DNA of 64,000 nt from NCBI RefSeq assembly GCF_003075455.1, contig NZ_QDAE01000006.1, positions 62,001 through 126,000 on the forward strand, written 5' to 3'. This document shows, one piece after another, positions 5,553 to 9,157 of the stretch. Source of the stretch: Arthrobacter sp. Bz4 (lineage in GTDB: Bacteria; Actinomycetota; Actinomycetes; Actinomycetales; Micrococcaceae). The translations under genes and the position numbers were made by a program. The first letter of the stretch is position 1. The number at the start of each line of letters is the position of its first letter. Under the pieces are notes generated by a model. It made no database searches. It worked only from the letters and a program-made list of their open reading frames with translations, and was not told the DNA's origin.

Positions 5553-6164
5553 ATGACCACACTGTTAGGGGAAGTATCGCAATCCATTGGCGACGCAGGG
5601 ATAGTCAGTGAGGTAGGTTGCACGGCCGATGAGAGCCCGGGCCTGACTCGCCGTGTCTTTGGTGTGCTGGTCGGGGTCACGGTGGCTGGCACAGCGGCAG
5701 CGGGCGGCCTGCTGGCAGCGGGTACCTCTGCCAATCCGCCGGGAGTCAAGACCTCCTTCGGCAGCGTTCGACTGACCGAGGCCGAGCGGCAGATGCGGCT
5801 TCCCCCGGCACAAGATTCCAGCGGCGGCGGTACGTCTGCTCAGGCCGTGACTGGCCACCGCGGTCACGGGCCTGCGGTCATCGGTCATTCAGTTCAACCG
5901 GCAAACAGCACCTGGGGGGACCATATTGCCCTTCGGTTGGAAGTCCATAATGCGACTGACCAACCGGTGCTCTTTGCCCCGGGCCAACTGCGGCTGCAGG
6001 TCGGGGTGGATGGACCCACCGTGACGAACCGAGACGCGGAAGCTGTCACTGGCCCGCTACCAGCCGGATCGACAACATCCCTGTGGATCAATTTCCTGGT
6101 GCCCTCAGATGAGACGAGTCTCTCCGCTGAGTTCACTGACCCTTGGGGCGGCGGGCCCCGCTGA
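5553..6164 (+). CDS. Exported hypothetical protein with Tat-like signal, first gene of multicopper-oxidase cluster
   Basis: I do not recognise a named family. The 203-residue protein has a segment LTRRVFGVLVGVTVAG at residues 31-46: a twin-arginine pair followed by a hydrophobic stretch, suggesting Tat export or an N-terminal anchor. The mature part has a low-complexity His/Gly/Gln-containing linker and a C-terminal domain (about 110-200) with beta-strand pattern (HIALRLEVHNATDQPVLFAP) like an immunoglobulin or cupredoxin-like sandwich without clear copper ligands. It lies 51 bp before the first oxidase gene and is probably co-transcribed. A partner or assembly role for the oxidases is inference. 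Confidence 0.7.
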   Translation: MTTLLGEVSQSIGDAGIVSEVGCTADESPGLTRRVFGVLVGVTVAGTAAAGGLLAAGTSANPPGVKTSFGSVRLTEAERQMRLPPAQDSSGGGTSAQAVTGHRGHGPAVIGHSVQPANSTWGDHIALRLEVHNATDQPVLFAPGQLRLQVGVDGPTVTNRDAEAVTGPLPAGSTTSLWINFLVPSDETSLSAEFTDPWGGGPR

Positions 6165-6215: not shown

Positions 6216-7661
6216 ATGACTGACATCCAGGAAACCGCGAAAACCAGCGTCGGGAACGTGGCGAAACCCACTGATCTTATGGCGACTGCCGGTCAGCTGG
6301 GCCGCTGGGACTTCCTCAGGTATGGAGCCGCCGCAAGCGTTGGGGCAGCGGCGTTGCTCTACGGGCAGTCTTCCAAGCCCGCCCAGGCCCGTGTAGTTGC
6401 ATCGAGCCAGCCTCTGGCGGTCACCCCTCTTCCAGGGGTTCTAGATCTGTACATCAACGATGGCTACCTGAAAATGGTCGATGCCTCACTGGTGTATCAC
6501 CGGGGATTTGGTGATCGTCCTACTGACGTCAACGACGCCAACCCTAGCCTGGCTATTGTTCCGAAGGTGTTCACAGCCGATGGTCGGCTAGTGGAGAGCC
6601 GAAGTTACCCTTTGGACGCCGTTCTTCCACCGGAAGGGACTCCGCTGCCTTACGGCCCGGATCCGGCTAACCCGGGGCAGTACTTCATCCGCCGCAACTA
6701 CTGGGCGAGCTATTTTCCACAACGAACTATCATCGCCGAAGTGGGAAGCAGAATTCGCCTTCGGGTGCACAACCGGCTGTCCAAGCCTCATGAGTTTACT
6801 CTGCATGGGGCCGGACCCAACCGCGGCAACGTCAGTACCGGGATCATTGATCCGGCAGGAAGCAAATTATTGGAACTTGATGCGCCCGCCCCCGGAACCT
6901 ATATCTACTCCGATCCGACCAATCAGCCAGTGGAAAGGGTTCTGGGTCTCTTCGGGGTCCTGCTGGTCATCCATCCGGACCATCAGTGGGCTATCGGGGA
7001 GGATCTTGCTTCGTTCGAACGGCAGTGGCTCTGGATCTGCCACAATGTCGACTCGGTGTGGGCCGGGATCGAGGCCTCCGGGGGAACCGTCGACCCACGC
7101 AAAACCAAAGCAGTACCGCGTTATTTCACGCTCAACGGACGCAGCGGCTATGAATCGCTCGGCATCACCACCAACGACGCGTTGAATCTGGCGACTGAGG
7201 AAGAGACGCTGATTTCGGGCTACCCGCGGCAGGTGGACGTGCGCCAGTTCGGCGAGGGCACTGAACTGGGGACGCTGCGCGGAGGGCAGCTTGTCAGGCT
7301 AGTCAACCCCGGCATTGTGTTCCATCAGATGCACTTCCACGGCAACCACCTGTGGACGGTGGGGCGAAACAATTATCCCTGGCCGCGCAGGGAAGGCTTC
7401 GTGGACCCCGAGGGGCATGTGGTGGTCCAACAATGGGAGGACGTAGTCGAACTGGAACCCATGGACCGTAAGGACTGCATTCTTCCGATCAAGCGGCCAC
7501 CAGATGCCGTCAACGCTGTCTGGGCAGCCAGGACCACCGACTGGGGATACCCAATGCACTGCCATGCGGAGCCATCGCAGACAGCCGCTGGTGGTATGTA
7601 CCCGGGCGGGATGGTTGCCCACTGGACGCTGAAAGCACCAATCATAGGAACAGGACCATGA
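6216..7661 (+). CDS. Multicopper oxidase-type protein A: trinuclear half-site, no type-1 site
   Basis: The 481-residue protein contains cupredoxin domains. The C-terminal one carries HQMHFHGNH (H370, H373, H375) and MHCHAEPSQTAAGGM (H448, C449, H450, M461), the two C-terminal copper motifs of multicopper oxidases. Residue 454, where the type-1 His normally sits in HCHxxxH, is Ser, so the type-1 site looks incomplete. The first cupredoxin domain is degenerate: HEFTLHGAG replaces HWHG, and YIYSDPTNQ replaces YHCH. The N-terminus has GRWDFLRYGAAASVGAAALL, resembling a degraded Tat signal. The stop overlaps the next gene as ATGA. On its own it has only half the trinuclear ligands. Confidence 0.88.
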   Translation: MTDIQETAKTSVGNVAKPTDLMATAGQLGRWDFLRYGAAASVGAAALLYGQSSKPAQARVVASSQPLAVTPLPGVLDLYINDGYLKMVDASLVYHRGFGDRPTDVNDANPSLAIVPKVFTADGRLVESRSYPLDAVLPPEGTPLPYGPDPANPGQYFIRRNYWASYFPQRTIIAEVGSRIRLRVHNRLSKPHEFTLHGAGPNRGNVSTGIIDPAGSKLLELDAPAPGTYIYSDPTNQPVERVLGLFGVLLVIHPDHQWAIGEDLASFERQWLWICHNVDSVWAGIEASGGTVDPRKTKAVPRYFTLNGRSGYESLGITTNDALNLATEEETLISGYPRQVDVRQFGEGTELGTLRGGQLVRLVNPGIVFHQMHFHGNHLWTVGRNNYPWPRREGFVDPEGHVVVQQWEDVVELEPMDRKDCILPIKRPPDAVNAVWAARTTDWGYPMHCHAEPSQTAAGGMYPGGMVAHWTLKAPIIGTGP

Positions 7662-9157
7662 CCAACGTTCAAGTACCCAATAGACGCGATGGTCGCCGCA
7701 CCTCGATGTTTAAACGCCAGGCAGAGCGGGATGAGGAGCTTGCCAAACGCCAGCGGGAGGCGGAGAAGAAGGCCCGGGAGGCCGCTGAGAAAAAGCGTAA
7801 GGAGGCGAAGAAGAAGGCCCGGGAGGCTAATCGTAGGAAGTCGACCCCTAGTCCGAGTGCAACAGCAACAGCGACTCCTTCGGCTACAGCCAGCGCATCT
7901 GCTACGCCTGTTCCCACTCCCACAGTTACTGCATCGCCCACTCCCACAGTTACTGCATCGCCCACTCCCACAGTTACTGCATCGCCCACTCCCACAGTTA
8001 CTGCATCGCCCACTCCCACACCTACACCTGTACCTCCTGTCAACGATGACGGGACGCCGAGTCACCGCTTCCGCAGTCAGGCGGACTTCAGCTCAGACCA
8101 GATGGATGTGGATAACCCCGTCACAGAATTTTTACAAACCCCGCAAACAGCAGTGGTTTTGAAATTCTTTTCCCGGGACCTTGAATTTGATGACGGAAAT
8201 AAATTCGAGATTTGGAGTTTCGAATCGGAAAATTCCGGGCGAAGCCTGCCGGGACCGACGCTGCGGCCCAAAGAGGGCGAGATATTCCACGCAACATTTA
8301 CTCCGAGTAAAGGAGCTCACACTATCCATTGGCACGGCATGGAGCCGGACCCACGCAACGACGGCGTAGGTCACACCTCCTTCGAGATTGGAGAAACCTA
8401 CACCTACCAGTGGCAGGCCGAACTGGGTAGACCCGGGGACCCCAACTATGGGGCGGCGGGAACCTACTTTTATCACTGCCACGTAAACACGGTTTTACAC
8501 GCCCAGATGGGAATGTTCGGTGCCCTGGTGGTTGACCCAACGGTGCATCCCGACTATCCGGTAAGCCCAGGAGCCCGCAGAGCCTTCGTGGACGGACCCG
8601 AGTACGACATCGCGACGGAATGCATCCTCGTTCCATATTCGGTGGATGCCCGCTGGCATGAGATGGACCATGCTGCCGGGCTGTCCGGCGAGGACGTCGG
8701 TTTGAATCGGTTTGAGCCCAAGCACTTCTATCTGCTGGGAGGTAATCTGGCGGACCCGGGTGACACTGATGACCGCGTCTGGAGCCTCTCGACCATCCAG
8801 GCCAACGTGGTTCCGGGGGAACGAAAGCCCACCCTCCTGCGGATTCTGAACGCCAACTATCTGCCCAACCGGATGTACTTCACTGACGCGGAGGGGAACC
8901 CAGCGCAGATTGCCGAGATCATTGCCCACGACGGGCGGCCCTTCAGGGACACCTCTGTGCCAGGGGTACCTTCTCCCCCCTGCTCGGCAGCGGGCTATCC
9001 GCTGCTCACCAGCCTGCTGAGTTTCGGGGCAGCCGAACGTTACGATGTCATGCTGACGCCGCCTTCGGCGGGCCGATACGAGCTAAGGGTCGAGTGGGAA
9101 GATTGGATTACCGGCGAAATCCTTGCGAAACGCACTGTGCCAATCATCGCTACCTGA
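7658..9157 (+). CDS. Multicopper oxidase-type protein B: type-1 site plus complementary trinuclear half-site
   Basis: The 499-residue protein starts inside the stop of protein A (ATGA). Residues 18-60 form a Lys/Glu/Arg-rich predicted helix, 61-130 a Pro/Thr/Ser linker with four PTPTVTAS-type repeats, then two cupredoxin domains. The first has HTIHWHG (H221, H224, H226) and YHCHVNTVLHAQMGM (H273, C274, H275, H281, M286), a full type-1 set plus four trinuclear histidines. The second (ends near AERYDVMLTPP) has no copper motifs and the chain stops where the third, ligand-bearing domain of a three-domain oxidase would begin. No signal peptide is visible. Confidence 0.88.
   Translation: MTNVQVPNRRDGRRTSMFKRQAERDEELAKRQREAEKKAREAAEKKRKEAKKKAREANRRKSTPSPSATATATPSATASASATPVPTPTVTASPTPTVTASPTPTVTASPTPTVTASPTPTPTPVPPVNDDGTPSHRFRSQADFSSDQMDVDNPVTEFLQTPQTAVVLKFFSRDLEFDDGNKFEIWSFESENSGRSLPGPTLRPKEGEIFHATFTPSKGAHTIHWHGMEPDPRNDGVGHTSFEIGETYTYQWQAELGRPGDPNYGAAGTYFYHCHVNTVLHAQMGMFGALVVDPTVHPDYPVSPGARRAFVDGPEYDIATECILVPYSVDARWHEMDHAAGLSGEDVGLNRFEPKHFYLLGGNLADPGDTDDRVWSLSTIQANVVPGERKPTLLRILNANYLPNRMYFTDAEGNPAQIAEIIAHDGRPFRDTSVPGVPSPPCSAAGYPLLTSLLSFGAAERYDVMLTPPSAGRYELRVEWEDWITGEILAKRTVPIIAT
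7913..8020 (+). repeat. 24-bp in-frame tandem repeat, 4.5 copies
   Basis: Four identical copies of CCCACTCCCACAGTTACTGC plus ATCG (7913-7936, 7937-7960, 7961-7984, 7985-8008) and a half copy to 8020 encode the PTPTVTAS linker of protein B. Exact identity at the DNA level, including third positions, points to recent expansion by slippage or recombination. Confidence 0.97.

Follow-up and report, generated by a model that had tools for sequence, protein, structure and literature searches.

A putative heteromeric multicopper oxidase with trinuclear copper ligands divided between two overlapping genes of Arthrobacter sp. Bz4

Two-domain multicopper oxidases are trimers in which the trinuclear copper centre (TNC) is common to two protomers, with types A, B and C defined among them (PMC13151041, in part). 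In the bacterial six-domain oxidases covered by one analysis, the TNC lies between domains 2 and 3 and a mononuclear copper site in domain 2 (PMC3600357, in part), and heterodimeric fungal laccases are composed of a laccase and a small protein (PMC3129051, in part). The present study concerns two overlapping genes of Arthrobacter sp. Bz4 (RefSeq assembly GCF_003075455.1), here named A and B, together with gene C upstream of them. They lie on the 64,000-nucleotide stretch analysed here (contig NZ_QDAE01000006.1, positions 62,001 to 126,000), hereafter the window, whose own numbering is used throughout; all features described in it are on the forward strand. An earlier interpretation of this DNA, the sequence-only reading, had proposed that proteins A and B complete one TNC between them, and this inter-protein arrangement is well supported by the co-occurrence of the two genes, their natural fusions, the lone ligand half-set in each protein and the predicted structure of a fused homologue (predicted template modelling score, pTM, 0.89).

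A and B are intact open reading frames, both with Cu-oxidase_3 and Cu-oxidase_2 matches above the Pfam cutoff. Gene A (6216..7661, 481 amino acids) encodes an oxidase half with ligands of the C-terminal, Cu-oxidase_2-type TNC set, and gene B (7658..9157, 499 amino acids; signal peptide not seen) one with the N-terminal TNC set and a type-1 copper site. They share an ATGA stop-start overlap (7658..7661), which recurs, exactly 4 nucleotides long, at 23 of the 31 split sites. With ligand roles assigned from motifs, the second domain of A (A2) would contribute H373 and H375 from HQMHFHGNH (residues 370-378; 7323..7349), where H370 is a residual type-1 histidine, and H448 and H450 from the HCH at 7557..7565 (within MHCH, residues 447-450), where C449 is a residual type-1 cysteine. 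In the first domain of B (B1), HTIHWHG (residues 221-227; 8318..8338) would provide the type-1 ligand H221 and the TNC ligands H224 and H226, while YHCHVNTVLHAQMGM (residues 272-286; 8471..8515) would add H273 and H275 to the TNC and C274, H281 and M286 to the type-1 site. Counting identical proteins once, including solo copies and excluding rows that match in pieces, the four TNC histidines of A are invariant in 67 of 67 sequences, and the four of B, with H221, C274 and H281, in 66 of 66; at the axial position M286, 61 sequences have Met and five have Leu. The eight histidines in four HxH motifs that characterise multicopper oxidases are therefore found, by motif, in A and B jointly and in neither alone. 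Since neither chain holds the second half-set, the canonical centre cannot be completed by either by itself. The complete type-1 site expected of such an oxidase is present in B.

The remaining domains are poorer in ligands. The first cupredoxin domain of A (A1; Cu-oxidase_3 match, residues 167-253, 6714..6974) lacks HWH and HCH; its H192, which aligns with the type-1 H221 of B in the profile alignment, is conserved in 65 of 67 sequences and H197 in 43. H370, H378 and C449 of A2 are conserved in every sequence, and no histidine follows HCH within 14 residues in any of the 67 A sequences, which is why the type-1 site of A2 looks incomplete: a partial set, His370 and Cys449, is invariant, and the second histidine after HCH is missing. 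B begins with a Lys/Arg/Glu-rich stretch and a Pro/Thr/Ser linker (7658..8044), short or absent in several split homologues; 24-nucleotide tandem repeats at approximately 7915-8030 encode its Pro/Thr/Val/Ser part, which follows the charged stretch. Linker length and composition differ among split homologues, and the linker is absent in L105 (L and G numbers are our identifiers for loci and genomes). The second domain, B2 (8579..9154, boundary approximate), has no HxH motif and matches the second half of A in profile comparison; H334 and H338 are invariant (66/66) and lie outside any known copper motif, and H424 is found in 64 of 66. The sequence-only reading had thus described the ligand sets correctly, including the degenerate first domain of A, the single complete type-1 set in B (apart from the five leucines at M286), the division of eight histidines into four per protein and the ATGA overlap; its view that B stops where a terminal ligand domain would begin did not hold, as the second, ligand-poor domain is present there. 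Both genes are under purifying selection, with non-synonymous to synonymous substitution ratios (dN/dS) of about 0.05-0.11 in seven of eight comparisons; these values are rough, with dS above 1 in the comparisons that could be estimated, and one dS could not be.

In the POXA3-type heterodimer of fungi, the laccase chain is understood to hold all copper sites. A and B resemble these heterodimeric laccases in using two different polypeptides per putative oxidase, but POXA3 pairs a laccase with a small protein, whereas here the copper site itself would be divided between the chains (PMC3129051, in part). The type C two-domain oxidases offer two further likenesses, an inter-subunit TNC such as that proposed for A and B, and a type-1 copper in the N-terminal domain, which is found in B only (PMC13151041, in part), in agreement with the type C arrangement suggested by the sequence-only reading. 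Type C enzymes are nevertheless encoded by one gene and form homotrimers with both TNC half-sets in every chain, unlike the two chains with one half-set each considered here. In six-domain oxidases such as MnxG and the algal FOX1, the TNC lies between the second and third domains, and the motif positions place it equally in fused A-B chains (PMC3600357, in part). These oxidases carry six domains in one chain, whereas A-B comprises four domains, here distributed over two genes; and the mononuclear copper of bacterial six-domain oxidases occupies domain 2, whereas the complete type-1 site of A-B is in domain 3 (B1) and that of A2 is incomplete (PMC3600357, in part).

The sequence-only reading had called for a homologue search to see whether the two genes co-occur, and they do so closely. 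Among 149 genomes of the same family, A was detected in 15 at an E-value of 1e-5, the window's own genome included; the B-domain query matched 53, with strong best matches (>340 bits) only in the same 15, the remaining 38 reaching at most 48.6 bits. A second B copy was not found in the window's own genome, where the one other B match is weak, covers the low-complexity residues 10-93 and contains two stops. After 13 loci sharing DNA with others had been dropped as duplicates, 74 non-redundant gene sites sharing no long DNA were retained: 39 fused A-B, 31 split, three with A alone and one with B alone, so that both halves stand side by side at 70 of the 74. The order is A-B in all 39 natural fusions, with linkers of 3-35 amino acids. 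Some A matches lie within open frames of at least 800 amino acids, as in L019, an A-B fusion of 804; fused chains measure about 780-850 amino acids and can be read as two two-domain halves. Four of the 39 (L069, L097, L119, L125) match in pieces only, as if frame-shifted or broken. The solo copies sit in genomes G122, G062 and G035, each of which also holds A-B pairs, and the solo A site L048 is in two pieces. All ligands are retained in the solo A and solo B copies L058, L051 (+ strand copy) and L050, which might pair in trans with a counterpart encoded at another site.

A one-genome-per-species scan yielded 54 loci, 13 of which duplicated loci found earlier, with Arthrobacter predominating and further hosts in Zafaria, Paeniglutamicibacter, Cryobacterium, Herbiconiux, Terracoccus, Nocardioidaceae and Solirubrobacterales. 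The Solirubrobacterales locus, L124, is a split pair in a metagenome-assembled genome, forming a long branch near the root of the tree discussed below, and indicates a wider but sparse spread. Distant split pairs, with 27-40% identity to those of the window, were found on two plasmids of the alphaproteobacterium Indioceanicola profundi.

Structure prediction was carried out with AlphaFold2 on the fused homologue L067 (782 amino acids; 52 rows), which is predicted to be one four-domain protein; the best of five models had a mean predicted local distance difference test score (pLDDT) of 85.8, with the pTM given above. Foldseek ranks 1-17 for this model were filled by chains of factor V, factor VIII and ceruloplasmin and by the Mnx complex chain 9bxa_A, which was taken as MnxG from its length and stood at rank 2 (TMq 0.48, root-mean-square deviation, rmsd, 9.3). 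According to VIA-align, each half of the model taken separately resembles two-domain oxidases and nitrite reductases. For the A half (residues 1-423) the top row was 3g5w, the blue copper oxidase of Nitrosomonas europaea, which we take to be a type C two-domain oxidase (Z 25.6, rmsd 3.1, 278 aligned residues), and the B half (445-782) matched 4kns (Z 22.2, rmsd 2.6, 249 aligned). Three-domain oxidases were not among the 50 VIA-align rows considered, an absence that does not exclude them. In the profile searches of PDB sequences, for which the best 60 rows were considered, 3g5w was also the best match of B1 in the A2-B1 search.

The motifs, their invariance, linkage, fusions and paralogy are established here, and the complex of A and B, its geometry, copper loading, electron path and export are what we infer. 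Our reading, to which we assign a probability of about 0.82, is that one heteromeric multicopper oxidase is built from A and B as its two subunits, in which A2 and B1 share one TNC, electrons enter through the type-1 copper of B1, synthesis is coupled by the ATGA overlap and export proceeds through the twin-arginine translocation (Tat) pathway with C. The last domain of A would meet the first domain of B, each contributing four histidines to a single trinuclear centre that reduces O2. Electrons would pass from the type-1 copper of B1 through the H273-C274-H275 motif to this centre. The overlap of the two genes would couple the synthesis of the two subunits, and the A-B complex would fold in the cytoplasm before crossing the membrane through Tat, escorted by C.

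Gene C (5553..6164, 203 amino acids), whose stop lies 51 nucleotides upstream of the start of A, encodes a twin-arginine motif, LTRRVFG, with a hydrophobic stretch, followed by a small domain whose one Pfam match, to DUF4352, fell below threshold (E 0.015). Under a simple motif rule, the RR and hydrophobic stretch of Tat substrates are present in 48 of 49 C homologues. C is upstream on the same strand at 45 of the 70 paired sites, and where C is in line with a fused oxidase, 17 of 18 sites show a 4-nucleotide overlap between the stop of C and the start of the oxidase gene; 16 of those 17 fused oxidases begin two residues before their first domain, without a signal. The fused L096 carries an RR of its own. 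At L112 and L114, two of the split sites, a signal is absent from both proteins. The window's A has, as judged by eye, a degenerate Tat-like stretch (6303..6359; RWDFLRYG with downstream residues, the motif reading GRWDFLRYG), and the RR is present at this place in several deep homologues (L096, L115, L118, L122, L124, L126 and L127). The best 15-residue Kyte-Doolittle mean is 2.03 in the window's C and 1.27 in its A, and none of the 31 split-site B N-termini exceeds 1.6, the highest being 1.25 (L101). Because a twin-arginine signal is carried by C, and in deep lineages also by A, and by no B, Tat export of a complex folded in the cytoplasm, with C as its escort, is the most likely route on the motif evidence. 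A similar layout is that of the Streptomyces tyrosinase MelC1/MelC2, where a gene for an escort with a Tat signal lies just upstream of that for a signal-less copper enzyme; the likeness to C and the fused forms is one of gene layout only.

The origin of the pair was approached through a tree and a profile comparison. In a tree built from 65 joined pairs and rooted on Indioceanicola (a quick method in which long branches meet at the root, with solo copies and in-pieces rows left out), changes between split and fused states numbered at least three, and the starred branches force three. The root and the deep actinobacterial lineages are occupied by split forms, so the simplest reading is that of an ancestrally split pair whose genes have apparently fused three separate times. 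The A and B profiles align with one another (hhalign E 4.7e-12, 237 columns, 97.6% collinear), from which it follows that the two are paralogues, and the pair therefore has the appearance of a two-domain oxidase that was duplicated, its copies having kept opposite halves of the active site. Taken together, a history can be proposed whose chances we consider evenly balanced: a two-domain oxidase would have been duplicated and the copies would have lost complementary TNC halves, A keeping the C-terminal and B the N-terminal one, so that a homo-oligomeric site became an obligately hetero-oligomeric one; about three later fusions would have produced four-domain chains. The pair would then be a living step between two-domain oxidases and multi-domain ones of MnxG and ceruloplasmin type, and would leave the cell through Tat as a finished complex with C as its dedicated escort.

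Several observations weigh against the heteromeric oxidase outlined above. Only the best L067 model was good, the other four scoring from 80.0 to 65.8, and the excised A2-B1 fragment folds poorly (pLDDT 53.6, pTM 0.41); that the eight histidines cluster in one site is something we infer from motif homology. The system is rare, a profile designated A3 matching two of 396 phylum genomes and two of 297 order genomes, in both cases the window's genome and G009. Solo sites exist, and the two patterns of the one-genome-per-species scan derive from A, which means that solo B genes would be missed by it. The export route rests on motifs, and C is on the opposite strand at four of the 70 paired sites and was not found in the fetched DNA of 21, some of which are incomplete. 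The hydrophobicity measure is also blunt, since 1.27 for the window's A against 1.25 for the B of L101 does not cleanly separate the two proteins.

A and B might instead be separate homo-oligomeric cupredoxins that merely share an operon, B being a nitrite-reductase-like or electron-transfer protein with a type-1 copper and A an accessory. The four solo copies and the sequence matches speak for this, as B1 matches two-domain oxidases and nitrite reductases, and A1 matches nitrite reductases with a best E-value of 2.4e-13 for the A profile. Yet both TNC half-sets are invariant although a pure type-1 protein has no need of them, the two genes are fused in the same order at 39 of 74 sites, their co-occurrence in the family sample is complete, and the NCBIfam model for copper nitrite reductase (NirK), TIGR02376, gives 18.5 for A and 31.4 for B against a cutoff of 296.3, by which that identity was rejected; we consider two independent proteins improbable. 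It is hardly credible that the split is accidental, the result of damage to, or misassembly of, a single-chain oxidase gene in the window. Related single-gene forms do exist, and a few fused relatives (L069, L097, L119 and L125) match in pieces only, but 31 of 74 sites are split, 23 of them with the same 4-nucleotide overlap, the window's B has a long N-terminal extension in place of the 3-35-residue linker of fused forms, dN/dS is low (~0.05-0.11), and split forms are basal in the rooted tree and also occur in an alphaproteobacterium. A sequencing or assembly artefact was ruled out by the 31 split sites, the conserved overlap and the low dN/dS.

A further possibility leaves the joint action of A and B untouched and concerns their ancestry: instead of a duplicated two-domain oxidase, the ancestor may have been a longer single chain, MnxG- or ceruloplasmin-like, that was split later. 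In favour of this, bacterial six-domain oxidases likewise form the TNC where domains 2 and 3 meet (PMC3600357, in part), and the Foldseek results point the same way, with 9bxa_A second and chains of factor V, factor VIII and ceruloplasmin taking the other places among the first 17. We regard it as unlikely, given that the split form is basal when the tree is rooted on Indioceanicola and that the complete type-1 site falls in domain 3 of the A-B order and not in domain 2; because the root is a long branch, it is still worth consideration.

Neighbouring genes offer some hints as to function. Directly behind B of L126, the distant pair on an Indioceanicola plasmid, lies a SCO1/SenC copper-chaperone gene (8015-8824 of that locus), and the fused copy L125 (240-5993), which runs over two overlapping frames of an Arthrobacter plasmid, has genes for an Nramp transporter and a metal-dependent regulator close by; these neighbours do no more than hint at copper handling and metals, metal oxidation included. 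Manganese oxidation is supported neither way, the neighbours of L125 providing a mere hint. Among nine neighbours taken from other loci, Pfam found one copper-related match, the SCO1/SenC protein, and one sub-cutoff ZIP match, and the other recurring neighbours of the window (at most 18 of 73 loci) look, by eye, like ordinary chromosomal genes.

The sequence-only reading knew of no described heteromeric oxidase of this design, and our searches of open-licence PubMed Central papers, mostly in the form of listings, likewise returned no split or heteromeric oxidase with a TNC across two proteins. No such pair is named in the titles and abstract beginnings of 12 of 21 papers on Arthrobacter and manganese or multicopper oxidases, and a search for two-subunit Arthrobacter oxidases gave no match. 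The pair would represent a heteromeric variant of the multicopper oxidases that, as far as searched, is not in print. Annotation may overlook such enzymes, as on one Indioceanicola plasmid, where A is labelled "hypothetical protein" and B "multicopper oxidase domain-containing protein".

The route from two-domain homo-oligomers to multi-domain copper oxidases is a long-standing problem, for which schemes have been put forward (PMC3600357, in part). Since split and fused forms of one family coexist in living bacteria, the transition from a shared site to one chain becomes testable, and with a heteromeric oxidase, halves could be mixed in studies of trinuclear-centre assembly.

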